A stretch of 64,000 nucleotides of DNA from an uncultured Psychroserpens sp. (GTDB lineage Bacteria; Bacteroidota; Bacteroidia; Flavobacteriales; Flavobacteriaceae). The notes beneath the pieces were generated by a model. The model was given only the letters and a program-made list of their open reading frames with translations, had not been told where the DNA came from and did no database searches. The stretch lies in assembly GCF_947492715.1 (NCBI RefSeq), contig NZ_CANLNS010000002.1, forward strand, positions 372,001 to 436,000, in the 5' to 3' direction. The translations under genes and the position numbers were made by a program. Below are positions 37,360 through 50,587 of this stretch, one piece after another. Positions within the stretch are counted from its first letter, which is position 1, and each line of letters opens with the position of its first letter.

Positions 37360-38310
37360 ATGGATGCATTACGAGGATTTAGTGAACTGGCATTAGGCTC
37401 ACGTCTAAAGCGATTGAGTGATTTTGTTATGAAGGAGGTTCAATGCACCTATGACTATTTTAATATAGAATTTGATCCTTACTTATTCCCTATTATAAAA
37501 ATCATTGATAATAAAAATGGCGTAACAAATGTTGAAATTAAAACCGCTTTAAAGTTATCGCAACCTGCTATAAGTCAAGCTGTCAATAAACTCATTGCTA
37601 AAGAATTGCTACATCTAGAAAGCGATACAATAGATAAAAGAAAAAAAATACTAACCTTATCAGACAAAGGAAAACACCTAGTGGCTCGAATGAAGCCTTT
37701 ATGGGCTGTCATTGACAACGTCATAAAAGAGTACACGACGCATTCGTCTAACTCTTTAACCGAACACCTCAATAAACTAGAAGATAAATTACAACATAAA
37801 AGTTTAAGTAAAACGATTATTAATATGGCAAAAATGGAAGTGAACAATGACTTTGAAATTATTAATTATGACGAGCGTTATGCTCCAAATTTTTACGATT
37901 TAAATATTGAATGGCTTAAAACCTATTTCTACGTTGAAACCTTTGATGAGGAGGTACTTAGCAAACCAGAGCATTACATTATTAATAAAGGTGGTTATAT
38001 CTTTTTTGCAAAACGCGATGACCTCATATTAGGAACCGTTGCGCTTATGCCGACTCATGATCCACTAGTGTATGAATTAACCAAAATGGCTGTTTTGTCT
38101 AATCAGCGCGGACAAAAAATTGGGCAACGCCTTATGCAGCATTGTATAGATTTTGCCCAAGCCAATGGATTTAAAGCACTTATGCTCTACTCTAATACAA
38201 TATTAGAAAATGCCATTTATATCTATAAGAAATATGGGTTTATAGAACTAGAATTGGAAAAAGATAGCCCTTATGAACGTAGCAATATTAAAATGGAGTT
38301 AACATTATAA
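37360..38310 (+). CDS. MarR-type regulator fused to a GNAT acetyltransferase
   Basis: Protein of 316 residues with two domains. Residues 1-150 are a MarR-like winged helix (AISQAVNKLIAKELLHLESDTIDKRKKILTLSDKG, the recognition helix and wing). Residues 155-316 are a GNAT domain with the acetyl-CoA loop MAVLSNQRGQKIGQRLM and the C-terminal NAIYIYKKYGFIELEL. Fused HTH-GNAT proteins are known in many bacteria and may couple acetylation of a small ligand to regulation; the target is unknown. It follows hutG by 54 bp on the same strand, so regulation of hut genes is possible. Its stop overlaps the convergent gene by 6 bp. Confidence 0.85.
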   Translation: MDALRGFSELALGSRLKRLSDFVMKEVQCTYDYFNIEFDPYLFPIIKIIDNKNGVTNVEIKTALKLSQPAISQAVNKLIAKELLHLESDTIDKRKKILTLSDKGKHLVARMKPLWAVIDNVIKEYTTHSSNSLTEHLNKLEDKLQHKSLSKTIINMAKMEVNNDFEIINYDERYAPNFYDLNIEWLKTYFYVETFDEEVLSKPEHYIINKGGYIFFAKRDDLILGTVALMPTHDPLVYELTKMAVLSNQRGQKIGQRLMQHCIDFAQANGFKALMLYSNTILENAIYIYKKYGFIELELEKDSPYERSNIKMELTL

Positions 38311-38799
38311 CGACTGGTTTAACATCTTATCCAGATCAGCACAGTATGTGTTAGCATCCTCACACAATGCGCTCAATGTTTCTATCAATAATTGCTGCAA
38401 TTTTTCATTCTTAGGATAGATGGCATAAGCTAACTTAAATTCGGAATATGCACCAGTCAGGTTATTTCTTTTTAGTCTTTGTATACCAGATGATATTAAA
38501 AATTTAAATGCCTCATCATTTGCGTTTTGAATATAGGCTTGTTTTTGGGCACGTATTGTATTGGAATGTTCTAAAAGTACTGGCGCCTTAAAATAAAAAA
38601 CCGAGAATAATAGTCCAAGAAAAAGAAGACTCATTACAATATAAAAATTGCTTTTTGGCTTTGAAGGTTGCATCTTAAATTGCCTACTGTAACCAGGTAT
38701 CGTATTGCATGTAGGTTTGCCTTTCTTTTTAGAAAATGCTTTATTTGGGCGCTGTTTATAAATCCAAGACGCCATACCAAACCCCATGTAACCTCCCAT
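38305..38799 (-). CDS. Single-pass membrane protein with TPR-like periplasmic part
   Basis: Protein of 164 residues: a basic N-terminus (about 50 residues, Lys/Arg/Ser-rich), a membrane helix (FYIVMSLLFLGLLFSVFYF, about residues 52-70), and a helical C-terminal part with a TPR-like pair (AFKFLISSGIQRLKRNNLTGAYSEFKLAYAIYPKNEKL). Start uncertain: Met residues at 1, 5 and 9 all precede the basic region. Function unknown. Convergent with the MarR-GNAT gene, overlapping by 6 bp. Confidence 0.6.
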   Translation of the reverse strand: MGGYMGFGMASWIYKQRPNKAFSKKKGKPTCNTIPGYSRQFKMQPSKPKSNFYIVMSLLFLGLLFSVFYFKAPVLLEHSNTIRAQKQAYIQNANDEAFKFLISSGIQRLKRNNLTGAYSEFKLAYAIYPKNEKLQQLLIETLSALCEDANTYCADLDKMLNQSL

Positions 38800-38933: not shown

Positions 38934-40394
38934 ATGAAAAAAGCACTTACATTCTTCTTAATTAGTTGTTTGTTTGCTTGCAACGAAAAATCGAATCAAC
39001 ACGATTACGTCGCTAGCACAGATACTATTTTAACAGACGCCTGTCCTACTCTAGACTCTATAAGGTTTTGTGAGAATAGAACTAACGAATTATGTTCAAA
39101 TTTACCATTAGAAGTATACTTCCTTGGAAGCCCAGATGGGCAATTTCAAAATGGGTATTCTTCGGTATTAGCGCCAGAAATTCAACCTTCATTTGATAAC
39201 TTTTCTTGGCAGAGTTTTGTAGCACTAAACTGGCCTTCTGATGCTTCTGGCAAACCTATAGGTTCCAATATTACAGACTATCCAGATTCATTAAGAGTTT
39301 GGGAACGTTTTACTGAAGCCTCTAAAGTTTTTAGCGCTGGCGACAAAAGTTTGGCAGAATTTAAAAGTAAAAACCCTAAATCTAAAATTGTGTCTCAAGA
39401 TTCAAAAGTTGCTGATGATTTACATCTCTCAGGGTTTTTAGAAGCCGATGATTATCCGCTTATTGATAGAAACTTAAACTTTGTCATTTATGAGGTAAAG
39501 ATGAATGCCGTTGAAGAACAATACATAAAGGATAATAATTTGAATACCAAAGAAGGCATATACAATTACTATAAATCAAAAAATACTATTGAACTTCCAA
39601 CACAAACCAATACGCTTCCTGGTGCTATAGAAATAAAGGCCAGTTGGAGAATACTCGATCAAAATAAAGGTGACGACCCTAATAAATACTATACACAAAA
39701 TGCCACTATTTTTGTGACTTCGGAAAATAGCATTTCGGGAGAGGCTTTTTCCTTCGATTGTACTATAGGGCTAGTAGGTTTGCATGTTCTTAGAAAAACT
39801 CATGAATTTGAAAATTGGATATGGAGTACTTTTGAACATATCGATAACGTGCCAGACAATGTTCAAAAAGCACAAACAGATCAAGAAAAACAATGGTCGT
39901 TTTACAATTCTGAGTGTTTGAGTTGTCCAGTAAACCAGCCGCCTTCACATGTACCTGGTGATGTTGTAAAAAAAGATACTGTCTATAAATGGAATACCAA
40001 AGCGCCTTACGCAGAACGTTATGCAACAGTAATTCCTGGAGAGGCTATAGGTCAAAAATTTGGAACTCAGGTTACACGAGTATATCCTATTTATTATTGC
40101 ACAGAACAATTAAATGCCATATGGCAGGCCAAATTGAAATCTTTAGGTTCAGTTTTTGAAAATTATAAACTTGTAGGCACTCAGTGGATGGTCCCTACAG
40201 ATGGTACGCCACCTCCATTAAAAATTAATGCGCCTTATCTGTTAGCAAATACTACTGCCGAAACCTATATGCAGGAAACATCGTCATGTATTAGCTGTCA
40301 TACTTTTGCAGGAATTGAATATAACATAAAGGCCCAAGATACTACGATTTTTATCCCGTCAGATTTTAGTTTTACCTTTTTGTATGCACAATAA
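38934..40394 (+). CDS. Lipoprotein with C-terminal CxxCH haem site
   Basis: Protein of 486 residues with a lipobox (FACNEK, Cys16). Most of the chain belongs to no family I can name; it is rich in aromatic residues and Asp. Near the C-terminus SSCISCHTFAGI is a c-type haem attachment motif (CxxCH), and an earlier ECLSCPVN is a CxxC without the following His. It is therefore probably a periplasm-facing, membrane-anchored mono-haem protein. A redox or peroxidase-like role is inference. Own transcription unit, closed by a very strong terminator shared with the convergent nine-gene operon. Confidence 0.65.
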   Translation: MKKALTFFLISCLFACNEKSNQHDYVASTDTILTDACPTLDSIRFCENRTNELCSNLPLEVYFLGSPDGQFQNGYSSVLAPEIQPSFDNFSWQSFVALNWPSDASGKPIGSNITDYPDSLRVWERFTEASKVFSAGDKSLAEFKSKNPKSKIVSQDSKVADDLHLSGFLEADDYPLIDRNLNFVIYEVKMNAVEEQYIKDNNLNTKEGIYNYYKSKNTIELPTQTNTLPGAIEIKASWRILDQNKGDDPNKYYTQNATIFVTSENSISGEAFSFDCTIGLVGLHVLRKTHEFENWIWSTFEHIDNVPDNVQKAQTDQEKQWSFYNSECLSCPVNQPPSHVPGDVVKKDTVYKWNTKAPYAERYATVIPGEAIGQKFGTQVTRVYPIYYCTEQLNAIWQAKLKSLGSVFENYKLVGTQWMVPTDGTPPPLKINAPYLLANTTAETYMQETSSCISCHTFAGIEYNIKAQDTTIFIPSDFSFTFLYAQ

Positions 40395-40398
40395 AACA

Positions 40399-40438
40399 TA
40401 AAAAAAAGAGCCGTCGATTAAGACGGCTCTTTTTTTTA
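40399..40438. terminator. Strong bidirectional terminator
   Basis: AAGAGCCGTC (40406-40415) and GACGGCTCTT (40422-40431) pair perfectly over a 6-base loop, with A-tract and T-tract extending the stem. It ends both the plus-strand lipoprotein gene and the minus-strand AAA+ operon. Confidence 0.9.
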
Positions 40439-42145
40439 TTGTTTGTCTAGCGCTTGCAACGAATCTAACTTTCTCTTGAGTCGTTCAATTTCGGCTTGAT
40501 TACCATTAGATGCGCTTGTGCTATCAATGGCTTTAAATTTCTCTTGGATTTCGGCTTCTAATATATCGGCATCAGTTTTATCTTCATCATAAAAATAACC
40601 TATTCCTTCACTAGAACGCCAGGCTTCGTTTAATTGGTCGTATACTGTTTTGTCCCATGTACTAGGATGTTTAACGTCAATCCAAATCACATCGCGATAT
40701 TCGCTATCAATAAGGACTAAATCTGGAGTAGCAGAACCATCAAATTGCTGCGCATTTGTATCACTAATTGCAGAGATAGTTCCTAAAAAGAACATGCGCT
40801 TACGCCCTGCGATATCTTTAACATAAGGTCTAAATTCTACAGGAGTATTAGCTGTCCAATCTATTTCTTTTCTTGATTCTTTTACTTTTAGAGGCATCGC
40901 CGAAACACCTGCATATCCCTGTTTTTTAGAAGCATGGTCATAATAATACAATTTATCAGTTCCATCGGCTGGTACAAATACACTATAGCTCAAACTAGTA
41001 CGTTCTTCTCCAACTGGTTCTAAACCAAACCAATGGTATAATCCACTATAGGCATCACTTTCTGAGCCTGAAAAATCAAAATCGGTCACATAAGGTTGTT
41101 GGTTTTGATCTTTCGGCATTTCAGGTATTTTTACCGCAGTTTCCATATTCCAAGGTAATGGATCACTAAATCCTCCTAAAAATTTCAGTGATTCGGACTG
41201 TAATCGAGATACCTTCTCTGATAATGTATTTTGTTTGGTGAGAAATGGATAGTTTTTCATATCCTCGGGTGCAATAAACGTTCCCTTTCCTATAGCAATA
41301 CGCTCTAAATAGTCGTTAAAATCATGCTCGCCACTTTCAATCACCATGACACCTCCAAAGGTTGGGTAAGGAAAGAAAAAACCACGCCAGCGTATTAAAC
41401 TTACCACTTGAACCCATTCGCCTGAGTCGTTTTTCATATAAAATGTATCGCTTGGCTCATAATTAAATAACATCCAAGGATTAAAACGCTGTACTACCGC
41501 ATTGTATGTGTTACGGCTAAATTTCAAAGATTCTCCTATCGAAAATGTTACAGGAATTCTGTTGTCATTTGAAAATCTAGGAAATGGCGTAGTACTGGAA
41601 ACAGAAAACACTTCTTCGGTATTGTCACTAATACGCTGCATAATATATTTTTCAGAAGGTTGTATAGCCATCGTCCATTTGTTTTCGTCATCTACACGTA
41701 CCAAATGCGGTAAGGACACGTCTTTGGTCTCTCCTACACTTTCATTAGCCATTGAAAAAATATTACGTAACGGTTGGATACGTTCGTTTTGCGTTAATGG
41801 TAGTTCGTTAATTTCTACTTTATCTAAATCATTAAAAACGTTATAAGTCTTCATATAATCATATAAGCCTACATTCCAACCTGCAAAATAAAGGAGTCCA
41901 AAAAATGCTGCAAGTAAACCTAATATACCAAGGCGCTTTCCCGTACTCGCGGTTTTTCGGAATTTTTTTAACCCGAAAAACAACACAATCAAACTTAGAA
42001 TGATAATAAAAATATACTTCCTAAAAAATAATAAAGCTGGTTGATAATCATCACGAAGTATAAATAATGCAATAAGCAAAATAAGACCTACAATAATGGT
42101 AATGGTCTTTTGCTTCTTTCCTTTGTTCCAATAGTTCTTTAGCAT
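40436..42145 (-). CDS. AAA+ operon membrane protein with large soluble domain
   Basis: Protein of 569 residues, last gene of the nine-gene operon. Three hydrophobic helices occupy residues about 13-31, 42-60 and 70-92; the remaining 470 residues are soluble, aromatic-rich and beta-like (PTFGGVMVIESGEHDF, LYHWFGLEPVGEE, YSVFVPADGTDKLYYYDHA), ending in a short coiled coil (IERLKRKLDSLQAL). I recognise no family. It starts 2 bases past the stop of the 64-residue membrane protein gene. By its position it could be the extracytoplasmic sensor or effector of the system. Confidence 0.7.
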   Translation of the reverse strand: MLKNYWNKGKKQKTITIIVGLILLIALFILRDDYQPALLFFRKYIFIIILSLIVLFFGLKKFRKTASTGKRLGILGLLAAFFGLLYFAGWNVGLYDYMKTYNVFNDLDKVEINELPLTQNERIQPLRNIFSMANESVGETKDVSLPHLVRVDDENKWTMAIQPSEKYIMQRISDNTEEVFSVSSTTPFPRFSNDNRIPVTFSIGESLKFSRNTYNAVVQRFNPWMLFNYEPSDTFYMKNDSGEWVQVVSLIRWRGFFFPYPTFGGVMVIESGEHDFNDYLERIAIGKGTFIAPEDMKNYPFLTKQNTLSEKVSRLQSESLKFLGGFSDPLPWNMETAVKIPEMPKDQNQQPYVTDFDFSGSESDAYSGLYHWFGLEPVGEERTSLSYSVFVPADGTDKLYYYDHASKKQGYAGVSAMPLKVKESRKEIDWTANTPVEFRPYVKDIAGRKRMFFLGTISAISDTNAQQFDGSATPDLVLIDSEYRDVIWIDVKHPSTWDKTVYDQLNEAWRSSEGIGYFYDEDKTDADILEAEIQEKFKAIDSTSASNGNQAEIERLKRKLDSLQALDKQ

Positions 42146-42147
42146 CT

Positions 42148-42342
42148 CTAGTTTTCCGTTTTTTTATTTATATCTCTTAGCGTAACATACATACCTAATA
42201 TAATAAAGACATTACTTAATGGTCCTAACAAGTCTTTATAATCAAAATTTGAGTAATCTATAATTGCAAAATGAGCAATCATAACAACCACAGACATCCA
42301 TAATACAAACTGGATAATTTTTTTACGTCTCGCTTCTTTCAT
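42148..42342 (-). CDS. AAA+ operon small membrane protein (64 residues)
   Basis: Two hydrophobic segments: IIQFVLWMSVVVMIAHFAII (about residues 9-28) and LGPLSNVFIILGMYVTL (about 38-55), with a basic N-terminus (MKEARRKK) and a Lys/Asn-rich C-terminus. The ATG overlaps the previous stop codon by one base (TAATG), indicating translational coupling. No family recognised. Confidence 0.65.
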   Translation of the reverse strand: MKEARRKKIIQFVLWMSVVVMIAHFAIIDYSNFDYKDLLGPLSNVFIILGMYVTLRDINKKTEN

Positions 42343-42884
42343 TACATTAGACCCTTATCTTTTAATCGGTCACGAGCTGATTTTTCATTTGCCTTTGGCT
42401 CTGGCTCAGTTTTTATCTCCTCCTTTGTGTCTTCAACAACCTTGTTGTCTTTAGGCTTTAAATCTTCAATAAATTCTTTTCCTTTTTCTACGACATTTTC
42501 AAATTTATCTTCTAACGATTCACTTTGTGCTTCAATAACTTTTCCTGATTTTATAACCAGGTTCGCTAAATACGTTCCTAATAATGTTCCTGCCGCAAAA
42601 GATGCAAATGCCGATATACCATAGTAACTAGCAAACACTGAAATAGGCGTTAAAAACTCAACAACAAGAGCGGCTACTAACACTACGGTAACTACAAATA
42701 TAAGTCTCGGGATAAACGCTTGTTTATAAACGAAACCCTTAGGATTATCTGCGTTCATTTGCAGTTCTTTACTGTTGACAATTTTATTAATAAAGCGATA
42801 AGCACCATTGCCATTAGATTCTCTCCAATAGATAAAAATTCCGAATAGTACGGCTACGATAAAAATGATGATATCTGTTCCCAT
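42342..42884 (-). CDS. AAA+ operon membrane protein with acidic/basic tail
   Basis: Protein of 180 residues with an N-terminal helix (IIIFIVAVLFGIFIYW), a cytosolic loop, then two more helices (LIFVVTVVLVAALVVEFL and ISAFASFAAGTLLGTYLANLVI), followed by about 75 residues of Lys/Glu-rich cytosolic tail. The tail could contact the AAA+ ATPase or the coiled-coil protein. No family recognised. Overlaps the next gene by one base. Confidence 0.65.
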   Translation of the reverse strand: MGTDIIIFIVAVLFGIFIYWRESNGNGAYRFINKIVNSKELQMNADNPKGFVYKQAFIPRLIFVVTVVLVAALVVEFLTPISVFASYYGISAFASFAAGTLLGTYLANLVIKSGKVIEAQSESLEDKFENVVEKGKEFIEDLKPKDNKVVEDTKEEIKTEPEPKANEKSARDRLKDKGLM

Positions 42885-42928
42885 GATTGCTGTTTTAGTT
42901 GATCCTTTATAAAGTTAGTCTAAAATTC

Positions 42929-44164
42929 TTAAATATTGTTACTAATGGTCTCAATGACCCAATCCTGTAGCGAAGGATCCCAAGTTTCATATTGTTTGTA
43001 AAATTCCTGCTTATCATACCAATACATGAACAGCACATCTTTTGGAGCAATATTAACTAAGAGCTTCCAAATAAGGTCTTGATGTTTAGGGTGTAAACTA
43101 GAATGTGGCTCGTGCAAGGCCTCAAATAAATCATCATCAACAATATCAGAAATTTTATACTGGTTACTCTTTTCGAGTTTTTCCAAGTAACGTTCTACAC
43201 TCATCACCTTCTTACGTGTGTCTATATCGACTTTATTAAGGTAACTTTTAAATAATAGTTGGTCACTTAATATATCTTTAATTGGATGCTTCGTTTTTTT
43301 AAGGTGCTGCGAAAATTCAAATTTCTTAATGCGCTCATATCGTTTGGTTTTTACGATATCTTCCAAATCATATGCAATAATGATATGATCTCTTAGTTTC
43401 TCCATCAATTGCGGTTGCTTGATATGAAAAATAAGAACGTCATGAACTGTATCTTTTATCGCTTCCTTATACCATTTCTTGCTTTCAAAAACGACAATTG
43501 GAGATATAAAATCTCGCAATACATAGACACCTCCAAAAGATTTGGTATAGAATGAATCGGTTACATAATTCATGGATTCAAGATTAAGATCCCGTTCTCT
43601 TAAATCACCATATTTATTGGCAGATTCCAGAAGTTGACTATGAATATTTTCGTCTATAAAATTATTTCCTTGTTTGAATTTTTCTATAAGCTGAAGTTGT
43701 TCTTCTCTAACATTATCGAGGTTATCAATTAAATGAAATCGTATGGTAACTGTTTGATACCTCAGCACATCCAAAGGCTCGTAAAAGGCATCTATACTTT
43801 GATCGAAATCGATACAAATGGCAGAATCTCTGGTGATATCATTAATCTTACTGCCGTGTTTTTTAAAGACCTGCATCATCATATCTCTATCAAATGTATG
43901 ATATGGTAAATACACTGGTTTTTTATTTTGTAAAGGTGAAATGATAATACCATGCGGATTTGATTCTCCGTTACATAAATAGTTTTCATCGTCCTTCTCT
44001 TCAGCCACTTCAGGGCTCCAACCGATACCATCTATATGAAAATGATCAAGTTCAGTCACTGTAAAACCCAGCTTAAGTAAGCATTTATTATAACGCTCTA
44101 CCAGTTTACCCGAAATTGGAATTAATTCACTTCTATATAAATTTGCTGCTTTAAGCTTATTCAT
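42929..44164 (-). CDS. AAA+ operon soluble protein (DUF6638-like)
   Basis: Soluble protein of 411 residues without signal peptide or membrane segment, beginning MNKLKAANLYRSELIPISG. I believe it corresponds to a conserved Bacteroidetes family annotated DUF6638, but this is memory rather than a search. Mixed alpha/beta composition with no nucleotide-binding or catalytic motif that I can see. It starts 6 bp after the stop of the AAA+ ATPase gene, so it is a likely partner or adaptor for it. Confidence 0.65.
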   Translation of the reverse strand: MNKLKAANLYRSELIPISGKLVERYNKCLLKLGFTVTELDHFHIDGIGWSPEVAEEKDDENYLCNGESNPHGIIISPLQNKKPVYLPYHTFDRDMMMQVFKKHGSKINDITRDSAICIDFDQSIDAFYEPLDVLRYQTVTIRFHLIDNLDNVREEQLQLIEKFKQGNNFIDENIHSQLLESANKYGDLRERDLNLESMNYVTDSFYTKSFGGVYVLRDFISPIVVFESKKWYKEAIKDTVHDVLIFHIKQPQLMEKLRDHIIIAYDLEDIVKTKRYERIKKFEFSQHLKKTKHPIKDILSDQLLFKSYLNKVDIDTRKKVMSVERYLEKLEKSNQYKISDIVDDDLFEALHEPHSSLHPKHQDLIWKLLVNIAPKDVLFMYWYDKQEFYKQYETWDPSLQDWVIETISNNI

Positions 44165-44170
44165 TTCCTA

Positions 44171-46129
44171 TTATCTTTTCCCAAACTGTTCTCTTGCTTC
44201 AGTTTCAATATTTAATTGATTGATTCTAGCATCTACTTTTCGTTTAAAATCGGTATCGGCAATGGTTGCTACGTTATCTAAATAGCGCACTACCTCTTGA
44301 CGACGTATTTCTGAAAAATCTAAACCTTTCATATTTGCACGCATCAATTCTTGAAGCATACTAAACTTGGTTTCATAGTCCTTTTTGAAATAAATGTCTG
44401 GATTCTCAAACCAGTCCTGTTCTAAATCAAAATCGGTTAAACGTAGTGATACTGCACTTTGAATATTACGCACATCTCGTGATGAGAAAAACGGAAACAA
44501 CTTCTGAATTTCTTTATACAAATTGGCGTAGAATAAATGTTCTGTTGATTTAAATTGCTTTTCTACCTTATCATATGCTTCTAATACGCGTTCTTCTGTT
44601 GGTTTATCAGACACGTTTAAAATTTCACCCATATTCTTGGCCAAACCTTGATCTTGTAAATAGTCATAATCACTTGGTCCTTGCATATTTACAAAGTCGG
44701 GCATGGTTGAGTCTAACTTTCGCCACCACAGATGATCTTGGTCTAAGAAATCATGTTCTGTACGTGCACCATCAATTTTGAAACGACCTTGAACACGAGA
44801 AATAACAGCTTTATCCAACATTTCTGGCAAATTGGTAAACAATCCTATTGAACTATTTCCGTAGTTAACTGCATAAGCACCTTCGGTATACCTCAAAAAC
44901 ACGCCAATCACTTCTTTAACACCTGCAGAAACTCCTTGAGCAGTACGCTCTTGCAAATTGTTTTCGGCATCATCAATTGGTGCAAATATGAGTTTTGACG
45001 GGTCCTGTAATGGCTTCATCCATTCTACCATTTTCTCTGCAGATCCACCTTGAAACGTAGAAATTAAAGTATCTGGCATTGGATGGAACAAAAACGGAAT
45101 ATCTAAATTATCACAGTGCTCTTTTAAACGGGTTGCAATGGCTGCAATCAACATACTTTTTCCCGTCCCAGGAATTCCATATCCCATAAATACTGGCATG
45201 AAACCGCCTAATTCTTGAAATGGGTTTTTCTTCGCATCAAAATCGTAACTTAACATACGTTCGGTTAAACGACGTGCAAAATGCTTTGCATCTCTGTTTC
45301 CAACGATCTGCTCAAATTGAATTTTATTAAATTCAACACTTTTCGCTGCACCTTGAAATACATTATCCCAGCCTGAAACAGCAAAATCAGAATGTTCTAG
45401 TTTATAGGTTCTATCTGTTACCGTTTCTGTATATTCCAAACTACTCTTACGCATTTGGATTTCGGCAATTAAGGCTTCAAAATAAACTACAGTAAAATCG
45501 ATGACATCTTTATCTGATTTGATAATCTCTGGATGTCCTAAATATTTGTCATAATAGAATAAGGCACATGAGATCCCTTTAAGAGGTGACATTAAGGACA
45601 CCTCCGGAATGCCCGCGAATTTGTTCTTCATCACACTCAAATCATCAGATGCAACCGTTTTTAAATCATGTAATATTTTGTATGCCGTTGCAAACAGCAT
45701 AAATGCTGTTCCTGTTTGCATTTTACTTTCGTACTCACGCTTTCCAGAAGCATCTAAAGCCGATTTATTTTCGGATAAACTTGATAAGCCAGAAGCGTCA
45801 TAATAACTGTCTTTTATCCAAATCCCGAGTGTTATACCTTCTTGAACTGCATATAGCGTTTGATTAAGATGTAAAGGAATGGCTATCGACTCTGGTAATA
45901 GCCGCTTTTTCAGCTCTAATATTGTTTTAGAAACTGAAGTGATTTCAGCACCACCATTTCCTTTAGCTCTTGACAAATACAATAATATAGACTCGTCTTT
46001 AGCGTCTTTATCTTTGTTTTTTGCGCGTTGACCCTGCTCCCATTGAATACTTTTAATGTAAGATGTGGCTTCATCACGAAGCATATCGAGTTCGTTTTGT
46101 TTTATAGGAAATGTGGAATTATGCTCCAT
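44171..46129 (-). CDS. Classical AAA+ ATPase with unusual Walker B
   Basis: Protein of 652 residues. Residues 1-290 are helical and unrecognised. The AAA+ domain follows: Walker A GIPGTGKS (318-325), a pore-loop-1-like STFQGGSAEK (aromatic Phe359), Walker B IFAPIDDAE (Asp386, Asp387), sensor 1 in GLFTNLPEMLD (Asn433) and arginine-finger candidates Arg445 and Arg449 in ISRVQGRF. The sensor-1/finger segment closely follows the TNxPxxLDxAxxxRxGRF pattern of classical AAA proteins such as FtsH or katanin. In place of the catalytic Glu of Walker B stands Asp387, with Glu389 two residues on. Residues 500-652 are a helical C-terminal domain. Likely a hexameric threading or remodelling ATPase; the substrate is unknown. 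Confidence 0.85.
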   Translation of the reverse strand: MEHNSTFPIKQNELDMLRDEATSYIKSIQWEQGQRAKNKDKDAKDESILLYLSRAKGNGGAEITSVSKTILELKKRLLPESIAIPLHLNQTLYAVQEGITLGIWIKDSYYDASGLSSLSENKSALDASGKREYESKMQTGTAFMLFATAYKILHDLKTVASDDLSVMKNKFAGIPEVSLMSPLKGISCALFYYDKYLGHPEIIKSDKDVIDFTVVYFEALIAEIQMRKSSLEYTETVTDRTYKLEHSDFAVSGWDNVFQGAAKSVEFNKIQFEQIVGNRDAKHFARRLTERMLSYDFDAKKNPFQELGGFMPVFMGYGIPGTGKSMLIAAIATRLKEHCDNLDIPFLFHPMPDTLISTFQGGSAEKMVEWMKPLQDPSKLIFAPIDDAENNLQERTAQGVSAGVKEVIGVFLRYTEGAYAVNYGNSSIGLFTNLPEMLDKAVISRVQGRFKIDGARTEHDFLDQDHLWWRKLDSTMPDFVNMQGPSDYDYLQDQGLAKNMGEILNVSDKPTEERVLEAYDKVEKQFKSTEHLFYANLYKEIQKLFPFFSSRDVRNIQSAVSLRLTDFDLEQDWFENPDIYFKKDYETKFSMLQELMRANMKGLDFSEIRRQEVVRYLDNVATIADTDFKRKVDARINQLNIETEAREQFGKR

Positions 46130-46145
46130 ACTGCTTTTTAATTTT

Positions 46146-46376
46146 TTATTGTGTCTTTAATTTATAGTTGTCAATTGTAATCCTGTAGCCCTTTATATGT
46201 TTAAATGAAGTGGCATGAAAATCGTAGCCTAGGCTAGCAAAAATTACAGTGAAAATTTTCACATACCACTCTGGCATCATAAAGATATTCCACACAAACA
46301 TTAAACCTCCCAACAAACCTAATGGAATACTTAATATGTATTTTAATGGAGGAGAATATTTAAAAGTTTGATTCAA
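46146..46376 (-). CDS. AAA+ operon small membrane protein (76 residues, TTG start)
   Basis: Two hydrophobic segments (LKYILSIPLGLLGGLMFVWNIF and VKIFTVIFASLGY), with a polar C-terminus. No ATG precedes the first helix; TTG at 46376 is 2 bases past the stop of the upstream gene, which supports coupled initiation there. Function unknown; conserved position in the operon suggests a membrane subunit. Confidence 0.55.
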   Translation of the reverse strand: MNQTFKYSPPLKYILSIPLGLLGGLMFVWNIFMMPEWYVKIFTVIFASLGYDFHATSFKHIKGYRITIDNYKLKTQ

Positions 46377-46378
46377 TT

Positions 46379-47422
46379 TTACTTCATGTTTAAATCTGCA
46401 ATCTGAATAGGTGCTTTTGCCAACTTATTCATAATTTCAGGGGTTTTGTTATACAATAACTGTATGATTCTATGAGGTGCAAAAATATAGCGCTGTCTAA
46501 ATACCGCATCCCAGTTCTGAAAAGTTTGTTTACTAAAGAAACTTCCTTCTTTGAATTCGCTTTTTGAACTCACCTCGTCTATCTTAAATGAAATGGCATA
46601 CGATTCTAGTGGAATTGTTTTTTTAGAAATCCCTTCTAATATGGCATGTGTTACCTTATTTTCATCTTTTGCAAAAACATTATGAATTGGCCCCAAGTCT
46701 ACACGTTTTACCAATTTAGGGAACACTTTAGGCAATCGTTTATCTATAGCATAGGCCATCATGTCTAATGCCAATTCACGATCTGCTACTGTTTTTAACG
46801 CATAATAGATATCCTCTCTATCTTTTTGTGGATGACTACCATCATAATTAAAATACATATAACAAATAAACGGCCTATTATGTGAGACCTCATAAAAACT
46901 CCAGCTTACAAGGTATTGTCCCGGAGATCCCTGAGGAGCTTCGATGATTTTACCTTGAACAAAACGATTAAATATGTATTCTTTCTTCGCCGATGTATAA
47001 TAAACAATTGAAGATGCTTGAAATAACTTTCGTTTAGCAATTGGTTCTTTCTTTCTCAACAAAGTATCCAGAAATTCCTGTTTTAATACATCAATATTGG
47101 TTAATTTTCCTAAGTAATCTTCACGTAAGCCTAAATCGTTAAAGAGGTAACGAAATTCTAAATAGTTTGGAAACCCAGAGTCGGTTAAATCTACCTTCAT
47201 ATTTTCCTCCTCATCATACATGTATTTTACGCGCATAGCCTCTATAGAATATAATAACAAATCGCAATACTGTTTAAACAAAATAACCTCCTGCTCATTA
47301 AGGATTTGTTTTTGCTGCACTGCAACAATCAATTCTTTAAGCGTAAAGTCTATCATTTTATGATAAAACACATACTGCTCTTTAGAGTCTAATACTGCCG
47401 AATCTAATGGTGTTACAATCAT
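46379..47422 (-). CDS. AAA+ operon soluble protein of unknown family
   Basis: Protein of 347 residues, mixed alpha/beta, no signal peptide or membrane segment. The N-terminal 100 residues are helical (FYHKMIDFTLKELIVAVQQK), followed by a beta-rich part (GQYLVSWSFYEVSHNRPFICYMYFNYDG) and a C-terminal helix-rich segment ending PIQIADLNMK. No catalytic motif recognised. It is the third gene of the operon and directly abuts the small TTG-start membrane protein. Confidence 0.6.
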   Translation of the reverse strand: MIVTPLDSAVLDSKEQYVFYHKMIDFTLKELIVAVQQKQILNEQEVILFKQYCDLLLYSIEAMRVKYMYDEEENMKVDLTDSGFPNYLEFRYLFNDLGLREDYLGKLTNIDVLKQEFLDTLLRKKEPIAKRKLFQASSIVYYTSAKKEYIFNRFVQGKIIEAPQGSPGQYLVSWSFYEVSHNRPFICYMYFNYDGSHPQKDREDIYYALKTVADRELALDMMAYAIDKRLPKVFPKLVKRVDLGPIHNVFAKDENKVTHAILEGISKKTIPLESYAISFKIDEVSSKSEFKEGSFFSKQTFQNWDAVFRQRYIFAPHRIIQLLYNKTPEIMNKLAKAPIQIADLNMK

Positions 47423-47445
47423 TTGTTAGCTATACCTTCTATGAT

Positions 47446-47628
47446 TTAAAAATTGAATTTCTCTTTACAAACATGAGTTTCTGTCTTTACCGTTTCGCCT
47501 TGTTCCCCTTGAGTTATTTCTGTTAATGTTTCACACGCTGTGTGATCATTAGAGAAATAGATAAATGTAATAAAGCCTGAGGCTAATAATACCAACGTAA
47601 AAGACACTAAAAAATATTTTCTATTCAT
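47446..47628 (-). CDS. AAA+ operon small membrane-anchored protein (60 residues)
   Basis: MNRKYF then a hydrophobic helix (LVSFTLVLLASGFITFIYF), then about 35 polar residues with two Cys (TACETLTE and HVCKEKF). The two cysteines, if exported, could form a disulphide. It starts 162 bp downstream of the coiled-coil gene; the gap contains an ACCCTCT/AGAGGGT hairpin but no second gene. Confidence 0.55.
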   Translation of the reverse strand: MNRKYFLVSFTLVLLASGFITFIYFSNDHTACETLTEITQGEQGETVKTETHVCKEKFNF

Positions 47629-47703
47629 AATTATGTTCTGCGTTAAGGATTGATACGGTATCCTTTTTTCGTTTTTCAGAAAAAAGATATAGAGGAAAGC
47701 CTG

Positions 47704-47733
47704 ACCCTCTGTAGTTTTTCAACGAAAGAGGGT
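47704..47733 (-). other. Hairpin within the AAA+ operon
   Basis: ACCCTCT (47704-47710) pairs with AGAGGGT (47727-47733) over a 16-base loop, in the 162-bp gap between the coiled-coil gene and the rest of the operon. No T-run follows on the minus strand, so it may be an RNA-stability or attenuation element rather than a full terminator; it could set a higher level of the first gene. Confidence 0.4.
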
Positions 47734-47790
47734 AACGCCCATTAATTTGTTATTACGCTTTTTTTTTCAAAAAATCGCCTAATACGAGGT

Positions 47791-49134
47791 TTAGGACAAT
47801 AAATCGTCGTCGTTAGATTCTGGTTTTGGTTCACCTTCTGGTTCACCGCCTCCATCTCCAGGTGCATTTGGATCTGCATTATAATATTCATCGAAAATCT
47901 CTTTCATATCAATACCATAGCGATCTGCAAAGTTTTTCTGGATTTCAGAATCCTTCGTTCTAATCTCTTTCAAGGCTTCTGCATAACTTCCATATACACC
48001 TTGCATTACTTTTTCATGAACAGGAATATTATCCATCATTTCCTGACGTGCTTTAGCACTAGCTGTATGCATCGCAGCTAAGGTTTCTCCAATATGTTCA
48101 TCTGTTTTCACACCTAAATGCTCTAAAATAGCTGCAAACTCTTGATCTGTTCTTGCTTTTAACGCCACAACATATCCATCGTAATACTTCAAACGTTCAT
48201 CAGTATCACTCTTTAATTTAGCACGATGTGTTTGTAAATTACTACGCAGAGATGTTAATACTTTTATAGTTAAGTTATGTTTATGTACGAAACTATCTTT
48301 TGAAGCCGCTAATGTCGTATAAGCATTTTTAAGGCCTTCTAACTCTTCAACTTTTTGCTCAAGTTGCGTTACTTTTTCTAAGGCTTCGGAATATTCTGTA
48401 GACTGTTTATCTGCAACCTCTTCTAATGCTTGACGCGCTTGTTTTAACAAGGCATATTGTTCTTCTAACTGTGCCTCTACTTGCTTCTTCTTCTCTAAAG
48501 CCTTTGTATGGTTATTACTTGCTTCGACAATTGCCGTTTTTAAACTTTCTTCAACTTCTTTGATTTCAAGTTCACGATCTTTTAAACGTTTAATTGCTGC
48601 TTGACTTTTAAATGACAACTCATTTAAGAGTGTTTGTACATCTGCGCTTTCGATACGTTGTTGAAATAAAGCCTTTGCTTTATTATCTGAGGCATCTCTT
48701 TCTTTTTGGGCAGCTTGAAGCTCCTCTTCTGCTTTTTTGATTTTACTTTTTCGTCCCCAAAGGTTGTTCCACCAGGTATCGGGTGTTTTGTTAGCATCTT
48801 CTAACTCTACCTTTGCACGCTCTAAACGCTTTATCGCATCATCTATGATTTTCTGTTCGGCAGCGTTTAATGCTGAAAAACCTTCAAACATAATACCTAC
48901 TTCATCCTGATAATCAGTAAGGTCCTTTATAGCATCAAGTAAGGTGGATCTATCTTTTTCTGCCATATCTACAACATTATCTAATGTTGCGTTAAGTATT
49001 TTCTGACGACTTTCTGGATCATCCTCTTGCGCCAATTTAGACTTCATTTGGTCTATGGCCTTTCCCCAATTTACATCTACTTTCTCAGTTTTTTCGTTGG
49101 AATTTGTTTCTAATAAATCAAAATCATCAGACAT
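47791..49134 (-). CDS. AAA+ operon long coiled-coil protein
   Basis: About 447 residues, soluble. Residues about 70-310 are nearly continuous heptad-type coiled coil (for example KKQVEAQLEEQYALLKQARQ), followed by a helical domain (residues 310-420) and a Gly/Pro/Glu-rich acidic tail. The protein starts MSDDFDLLETNS and ends SNDDDLLS: the same short acidic DLL motif at both termini. Homologues are often auto-named microtubule-binding protein from coiled-coil similarity, which should not be believed. A distant likeness to TelA-type tellurite-resistance proteins is possible but unproven. ATG 49134 is preferred over an in-frame TTG at 49161. It is the first gene of the operon. Confidence 0.7.
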   Translation of the reverse strand: MSDDFDLLETNSNEKTEKVDVNWGKAIDQMKSKLAQEDDPESRQKILNATLDNVVDMAEKDRSTLLDAIKDLTDYQDEVGIMFEGFSALNAAEQKIIDDAIKRLERAKVELEDANKTPDTWWNNLWGRKSKIKKAEEELQAAQKERDASDNKAKALFQQRIESADVQTLLNELSFKSQAAIKRLKDRELEIKEVEESLKTAIVEASNNHTKALEKKKQVEAQLEEQYALLKQARQALEEVADKQSTEYSEALEKVTQLEQKVEELEGLKNAYTTLAASKDSFVHKHNLTIKVLTSLRSNLQTHRAKLKSDTDERLKYYDGYVVALKARTDQEFAAILEHLGVKTDEHIGETLAAMHTASAKARQEMMDNIPVHEKVMQGVYGSYAEALKEIRTKDSEIQKNFADRYGIDMKEIFDEYYNADPNAPGDGGGEPEGEPKPESNDDDLLS

Positions 49135-50206: not shown

Positions 50207-50440
50207 ATGCTAACTACTTATACTTCAAATATTTCACTCGTAAGCACGATGCAGCTAACCATAGTTCTCATTGTAACGGCTTCTATATTTTTAATTTTCA
50301 TTGCTATTGCAATTATTAAAATGTATAAGTTAAAGGCAGAAAACAAAAGGTTAACCGATAACAGTTTCTATAAATCTGAAATAGATAAAAGCTATCAAGA
50401 TTTCACTGATGGGCATTTGTATGACAATAATAACAATTAA
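50207..50440 (+). CDS. Membrane microprotein 1 (77 residues)
   Basis: A single hydrophobic helix (LTIVLIVTASIFLIFIAIAI) followed by KMYKLKAENKRL and a polar Asp/Asn-rich tail. ATG 50207 or an in-frame ATG at 50249 could be the start; 50207 fits the promoter. It resembles the next, shorter protein in helix position and in the following K-x-K-x-E-N-K motif, suggesting a tandem duplication. Function unknown. Confidence 0.65.
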   Translation: MLTTYTSNISLVSTMQLTIVLIVTASIFLIFIAIAIIKMYKLKAENKRLTDNSFYKSEIDKSYQDFTDGHLYDNNNN

Positions 50441-50443
50441 ATT

Positions 50444-50587
50444 ATGGATACTAATCTAGCAAAAATAACTACGATATTATCTATTGCTTTAGTTACAATT
50501 TTAGGCCTATTGGTATTAAACTTAGTTAAAGTTTATGCCCTAAAAAAAGAGAATAAAGCACTTAGAAAACAAATAAATAAAGAATAA
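50444..50587 (+). CDS. Membrane microprotein 2 (47 residues)
   Basis: Read directly: ATG at 50444, TAA at 50585-50587. MDTNLAKI, a hydrophobic helix (TILSIALVTILGLLVLNLV), then KVYALKKENKALRKQINKE, a short basic coiled-coil tail. It starts 3 bp after the stop of microprotein 1 and shares the helix-then-(K)Y-LK-ENK pattern. A strong terminator follows immediately, so the two small genes form a complete unit. Confidence 0.65.
   Translation: MDTNLAKITTILSIALVTILGLLVLNLVKVYALKKENKALRKQINKE

Follow-up and report, generated by a model that had tools for sequence, protein, structure and literature searches.

The 64,000-nucleotide stretch of an uncultured Psychroserpens genome analysed here (contig NZ_CANLNS010000002.1, positions 372,001 to 436,000, hereafter the window; host genome of 4.2 Mb) carries on its minus strand, between positions 40436 and 49134, an operon organized around an AAA+ ATPase. 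The evidence is strong that this gene set is a real, conserved system: six genes, named I, G, E, D, C and A below, stay linked across families in many marine bacteria, and four of them (I, G, E and D) across phyla, as would be expected of a genuine multi-protein machine. We propose, with a probability of roughly 0.42, that the products of the operon together make up a single ATP-driven remodelling machine on the cytoplasmic side of the inner membrane, with its parts distributed as set out below; the mechanism is drawn from motor homology and anatomy, the system being known here from its genes only. The ATPase is the only product whose mechanism is legible from sequence. No known function was found for any of the remaining five core proteins, of which one bears a DUF (domain of unknown function) number and four match no family.

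A first-pass annotation of the window had described a block of nine minus-strand genes, and reading of the open reading frames (ORFs) recovers all nine at the coordinates and lengths that it gave. They are lettered so that the order of transcription is I, H, G, F, E, D, C, B, A:

47791..49134, minus strand: I, coiled-coil protein of 447 amino acids (aa), first gene of the unit
47446..47628, minus strand: H, small membrane ORF of 60 aa, accessory
46379..47422, minus strand: G, soluble core protein of 347 aa, without family
46146..46376, minus strand: F, small membrane ORF of 76 aa with a TTG start, accessory
44171..46129, minus strand: E, AAA+ ATPase of 652 aa (PF00004)
42929..44164, minus strand: D, DUF6638 protein of 411 aa (PF20343)
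42342..42884, minus strand: C, membrane protein of 180 aa with two strong hydrophobic segments
42148..42342, minus strand: B, small membrane ORF of 64 aa, accessory
40436..42145, minus strand: A, membrane protein of 569 aa with three N-terminal transmembrane segments
40398..40439, both strands: bidirectional intrinsic terminator, 18-pair stem with a T-rich tail on either side

The single strong terminator that had been reported to close the block is present; it acts in both directions and is common to the operon and a convergent ORF at 38934-40394. The junctions had been described as mostly overlaps or gaps of less than 50 bp, which holds for all of them (H-G 23 bp, G-F 2, F-E 16, E-D 6, D-C 44, B-A 2, and a C-B overlap of 1) except one, the I-H gap of 162 bp. 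Matches to sigma-70-like promoters are not enriched between positions 38500 and 51500 (52 against a shuffle mean of 51.6). Gene I starts at the ATG at 49134; an alternative listed ORF starts with TTG and reaches 49161, which is unlikely to be the true start because MS(D/N)DFDLLE is kept in 15/15 aligned relatives.

Conservation was followed in the best 80 of 301 loci found among genome contigs with E as the query. By tblastn, E (the query gene) and D occur in all 80, I and G in 79, and C and A in 77. The full set I-G-E-D-C-A lies in one order on one strand in 77/80 loci, over 8.0-13.3 kb, and the remaining three (L035, L063 and L064) are entire short contigs of 3.4-12 kb. Profiles of A and E, run on overlapping genome samples, matched 5/198 Bacteroidia genomes (4 of them outside Flavobacteriaceae) and 9/395 (6 outside Flavobacteriaceae, in four families), respectively. 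The six loci outside Flavobacteriaceae (L139-L142, L151 and L152), two of which (L140 and L142) come from one genus, were all read and keep the six genes in order (6/6). In L140 a 208-aa ORF separates G from E. Gene C of L141 escaped the first profile and was assigned from its position; a wider profile does match it, but circularly, since the sequence went into building that profile. Two further Flavobacteriaceae loci are complete (L153 and L156), as is L154, where about 9.1 kb separate E from D; in L155, I, G and E are present and D, C and A are not within the stretch read. A scan of the phylum placed E in 5/395 genomes, all Flavobacteriaceae, and DUF6638 in 4/296. The genes are thus kept together across Bacteroidia rather than scattered (77/80 loci; 6/6 in other families). 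The proposal of a nine-gene system therefore stands as regards a conserved operon, but the unit is one of six genes with a four-gene cross-phylum core.

The trees of five genes (E, I, G, D and A) have 6-13 splits in common per pair, out of 24 possible with 27 taxa or 20 with 23 taxa, against at most 3 in 200 label shuffles; the agreement is partial yet far above chance. Purifying selection on the unit is strong: in comparisons of the window genes with six close relatives, with synonymous divergence near saturation, E has a ratio of nonsynonymous to synonymous substitution rates (dN/dS) of 0.009-0.026 and I one of 0.016-0.045; for the other core genes the ratios that could be computed are 0.011-0.034 (G), 0.018-0.045 (D), 0.035-0.095 (C) and 0.036-0.052 (A).

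The four-gene core extends to Proteobacteria. In tblastn searches of plasmid records, D, E and a rhizobial G each match the same 10 records (4 Vibrio, 4 Sinorhizobium, 1 Shinella and 1 Rhizobium). The Vibrio D matches span just 13% of the query, with E-values of 4e-4 to 5e-4; searched against Pfam DUF6638, proteobacterial D proteins score 199.1 bits (Vibrio) and 256 bits. All five proteobacterial loci analysed (L123, L124, L126, L127 and L128) have the order I-G-E-D on one strand. Bacteroidota profiles recover G, E and D in 5/5 of them and I, of about 360 aa here, directly in 1/5 (9.1e-8), the I proteins of the other four matching Vibrio I at 3.3e-49 or better. When Bacteroidia and Proteobacteria profiles were compared with each other and with 25 block-shuffled decoys, the cross-phylum score exceeded the best decoy for each protein (I 114.9 against 34.7, G 213.3 against 75.9, E 451.2 against 72.7, D 304.9 against 98.7). 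A DUF2333-type membrane protein follows D in 3/4 rhizobial loci: the fifth gene of the Sinorhizobium meliloti locus is DUF2333 (PF10095) by Pfam, and those of Sinorhizobium K101 and Shinella are BLAST relatives of the S. meliloti protein.

Protein E, whose closest named relatives are from Psychroserpens (up to 98% identical), is one of only two among the nine products with a Pfam match above cut-off, the other being D. It scores 36 bits against PF00004 (AAA; cut-off 21.2) and has the Walker A, Walker B and arginine-finger positions of the family, the Walker-B Glu being changed to Asp. Its alignment of 16 sequences from three groups contains 63 invariant columns, among them the following motifs:

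45155..45178, minus strand: Walker A, residues 318-325, GIPGTGKS, with G318 and P320-K324 invariant in 16/16
44969..44986, minus strand: Walker B, residues 382-387, FAPIDD, with D386 and D387 invariant in 16/16
44783..44797, minus strand: R445 and R449, invariant in 16/16, which by motif we take to be arginine fingers

S357, Q360, G361 and N433 are also invariant (16/16), and the aromatic pore-loop residue beside the first three of these is F in Flavobacteriaceae and Y in Proteobacteria in the rows printed. The earlier description of E as a classical AAA+ protein with pore loop and arginine fingers was therefore sound, since its Walker A, pore-loop and arginine-finger positions are conserved across two phyla. 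In an alignment with a VCP-like ATPase, Asp387 takes the position of the catalytic Glu. Among the best 60 of 163 matches to solved structures, the nearest AAA modules include VCP/Cdc48, Rpt, Afg2, Vps4 and Pch2, and these matches span residues ~300-470, which leaves the N-terminal ~250 residues of E without a solved relative in that set.

Protein I, ~360-470 aa long across relatives, keeps L307, D310, T311, R314 and Y318 in 16/16 rows and a DDLL tail in 15/15 aligned Flavobacteriaceae sequences. Protein G yields a confident alpha/beta AlphaFold2 model (predicted local distance difference test score, pLDDT, 87.8; predicted template modelling score 0.84), for which a Foldseek search of the PDB gave no match at E<=0.001. 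The two soluble proteins of 347 and 411 residues had been presented as lacking recognised catalytic motifs; G matched no family, and D falls in the named family DUF6638 (PF20343), with 121.7 bits over two stretches against a cut-off of 27. As for the membrane proteins, hydropathy places transmembrane segments of A at residues 12-30, 38-56 and 72-90, followed by ~479 aa that, judging from lysine plus arginine counts and the positive-inside rule, are probably periplasmic. Protein C is 22-25% identical in other Bacteroidia families.

In the machine that we propose, E would form a hexamer and act through its pore loops on assemblies of the coiled-coil protein I, which it would pull on, take apart or reset; G and D would be obligate cofactors, serving as adaptors or substrate-loading subunits. 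C and A would dock the machine to the membrane, where the large domain of A would report envelope state or be the client. The membrane module would be variable, a DUF2333 membrane protein taking this position in three of four rhizobial loci.

Several observations weigh against this proposal. The AlphaFold2 model of I is all-helical and of low confidence (pLDDT 67.6); Foldseek returned no match at E<=0.001, its best being long-helical proteins such as a chemoreceptor, Rad50 and alpha-pore toxins at E>=0.06 (best 0.061), so that the filamentous partner inferred in the first-pass annotation stays putative. Replacement of the Walker-B Glu by Asp throughout could mean slow hydrolysis; Asp also occupies this position in Rubisco activase, so that an inactive enzyme does not necessarily follow from the substitution. 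Profiles of C and A found no counterpart in the five proteobacterial loci (best E-values 2.2 and 0.59, respectively), and the membrane module may therefore not be general; nor was a DUF2333 gene found adjoining the Vibrio locus or in the stretch read of Rhizobium leguminosarum. Protein A itself gave no Pfam match to PF10095, and its hhalign score against DUF2333 (21.5) was equalled by 9/150 decoys, which is within noise. The operon is also patchy, the coiled-coil gene occurring in 48/149 Flavobacteriaceae genomes and E in just nine of the 395 Bacteroidia genomes, and it is therefore dispensable to the group at large.

The same facts can be arranged differently if E, G and D act together, much as MoxR/RavA or Rubisco activase do, as a dedicated assembly chaperone on one specific client, A and C (or DUF2333) being that client and I a structural scaffold rather than a substrate. 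That G and D are linked to E as strictly as I is would suit such an arrangement, as would the high conservation of A (105 invariant columns over 12 rows), but proteobacterial loci have the core without detectable A and C, so that a common client would have to differ there. We regard this chaperone as somewhat unlikely, though it is the alternative we take most seriously.

The operon also contains more variable material. The small ORFs H, F and B look accessory to the six-gene unit: homologues were found in 9, 1 and 3 of the 80 loci by tblastn and in 10, 1 and 3 by blastp of ORFs, with proteins this short being able to escape both searches, and H has a dN/dS of 0.22-0.43 in the 5/6 close relatives carrying it. 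Between E and D, 53/77 full loci have one ORF of a NudK/YffH-type Nudix cluster, one member of which matches NCBIfam TIGR00052 at 8.5e-41; a stricter Nudix-box pattern finds a Nudix ORF in 16/78 loci, and the window has no room for it because its E-D gap is 6 bp. The operon gaps are insertion spots (e.g., L056 9575-9934 and L087 13840-14142): 22 gap ORFs in 18 loci cluster with the 23S rRNA-intervening-sequence protein (PF05635, 4.3e-31 for one), and 9 with what appears by eye to be a GIY-YIG protein. The long D-to-E interval of L154 (5213-14339) includes a Nudix gene and a 1490-aa protein, presumably CheB/CheR-like from its opening residues, a relative of which, 1618 aa long, is encoded downstream of E in L155. 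In S. meliloti Ak57, E and D are separated by a gene for an endonuclease-domain protein and an IS4-family transposase (L124 13491-15236). Upstream of the operon in the one non-flavobacterial genus with two loci (L140 12724-13467 and L142 4460-5221) is a gene for a protein of 247-253 aa that contains a membrane segment; a Pfam search of the L142 copy gave no match.

Around the operon, the window encodes at 37360-38310 a 316-aa protein that by eye resembles a fusion of a MarR-type regulator with a GNAT acetyltransferase, and at 50207-50587 two adjoining small membrane proteins of 77 and 47 aa that resemble each other, flanked by a 265-aa gene and an ABC-F-like one (names again by eye). Counterparts of the 316-aa gene and the ABC-F gene occur in 57/80 and 66/80 fetched stretches, respectively. 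Such recurring chromosomal neighbours speak against an anti-phage or stress-island module, in which an IetA-like ATPase or a Lamassu-like coiled-coil protein would act with partners. Weak PADLOC matches (E to IetA 9.3e-5, I to LmuB 3.3e-4, I to JetC 6.1e-4) point towards a module of this kind, but they are common for AAA+ and coiled-coil proteins, no protease family is found among the nine products, phage records gave no match, nor did a weak scan of viral contigs, and dN/dS is very low. We consider a defence role highly improbable; the most likely cellular role is constitutive envelope upkeep rather than mobile defence. Membership in IetAS was likewise not supported: E has only that weak AAA-type match to IetA, and the subtilase-type protease that partners IetA has no equivalent protease family among the nine.

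The first-pass annotation had known of no characterized pathway with this set, and searches of Pfam, NCBIfam, PADLOC, PHROGs and open-licence PubMed Central papers indeed gave no convincing match: NCBIfam, PADLOC and PHROGs returned weak matches only (for example, E to phrog_3757 at 2.4e-5), and the six-gene set was not found described in those papers. In the same literature, DUF6638, to which D belongs, was not found mentioned, and DUF2333, which itself or through relatives follows D in three rhizobial loci and to which A has no kinship supported above decoys, is mentioned at a type VI secretion system locus; no function was found for either. TelA/Ter loci (PF05816) are comparable in that TelA is helical, of ~360-390 aa, and is followed by a soluble protein of 315-328 aa in 3/4 loci, but this genome has no TelA and the nine products have no TerD match. 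TelA identity of I was not supported: I gave no Pfam match at E<=1, and its hhalign score against four TelA proteins (15.6) was equalled by 7/25 decoys.

The closest known systems also include Vps4 and ESCRT-III (endosomal sorting complexes required for transport) and their archaeal counterparts CdvC and CdvB, which also couple a classical AAA+ protein with an aromatic pore loop to a helical partner in a membrane setting. The operon could accordingly belong, as a divergent member, to the ESCRT-III/PspA-with-Vps4 kind; I would then be a protein of the ESCRT-III superfamily that has diverged strongly, and E would be its Vps4. This shared logic and the presence of Vps4 among the nearest solved AAA modules are in favour of such a kinship. 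At Pfam E<=1, however, E matches neither the MIT nor the Vps4 C-terminal domain, and neither I nor the two proteobacterial I proteins searched match Snf7 (PF03357) or PspA (PF04012), so that neither membership was supported. The linked G and D are extra here, and I is roughly double the size of ESCRT-III proteins. PspA systems in which a bacterial coiled-coil protein is coupled to AAA+ partners and membrane genes have been described (PMC11237479) and lend this kinship some weight; the present operon differs in having no PspA domain, and none of the Band-7, DUF350, DUF4178, Toastrack and CesT domains of those systems is among its Pfam matches at E<=1. According to its abstract, a second source (PMC10936438) finds no identifiable ESCRT homologues in bacteria, while the portion of its text consulted counts PspA in the ESCRT-III family; the operon is not described in the portions of either source consulted. 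Taken together, membership of this kind is improbable. A bolder version of our own proposal, which we hold to be rather unlikely, is that of an undescribed Vps4/ESCRT-III-like membrane remodeller assembled from unrelated partners and common to Bacteroidota and Pseudomonadota. Its AAA+ ring, in which the Walker-B Asp-Asp is fixed, would cycle a coiled-coil polymer, controlled by a membrane protein whose large domain is periplasmic. The operon provides a parts list for asking whether AAA+-driven remodelling of coiled-coil proteins exists in bacteria beyond PspA, and Sinorhizobium, Winogradskyella and Psychroserpens are tractable hosts.

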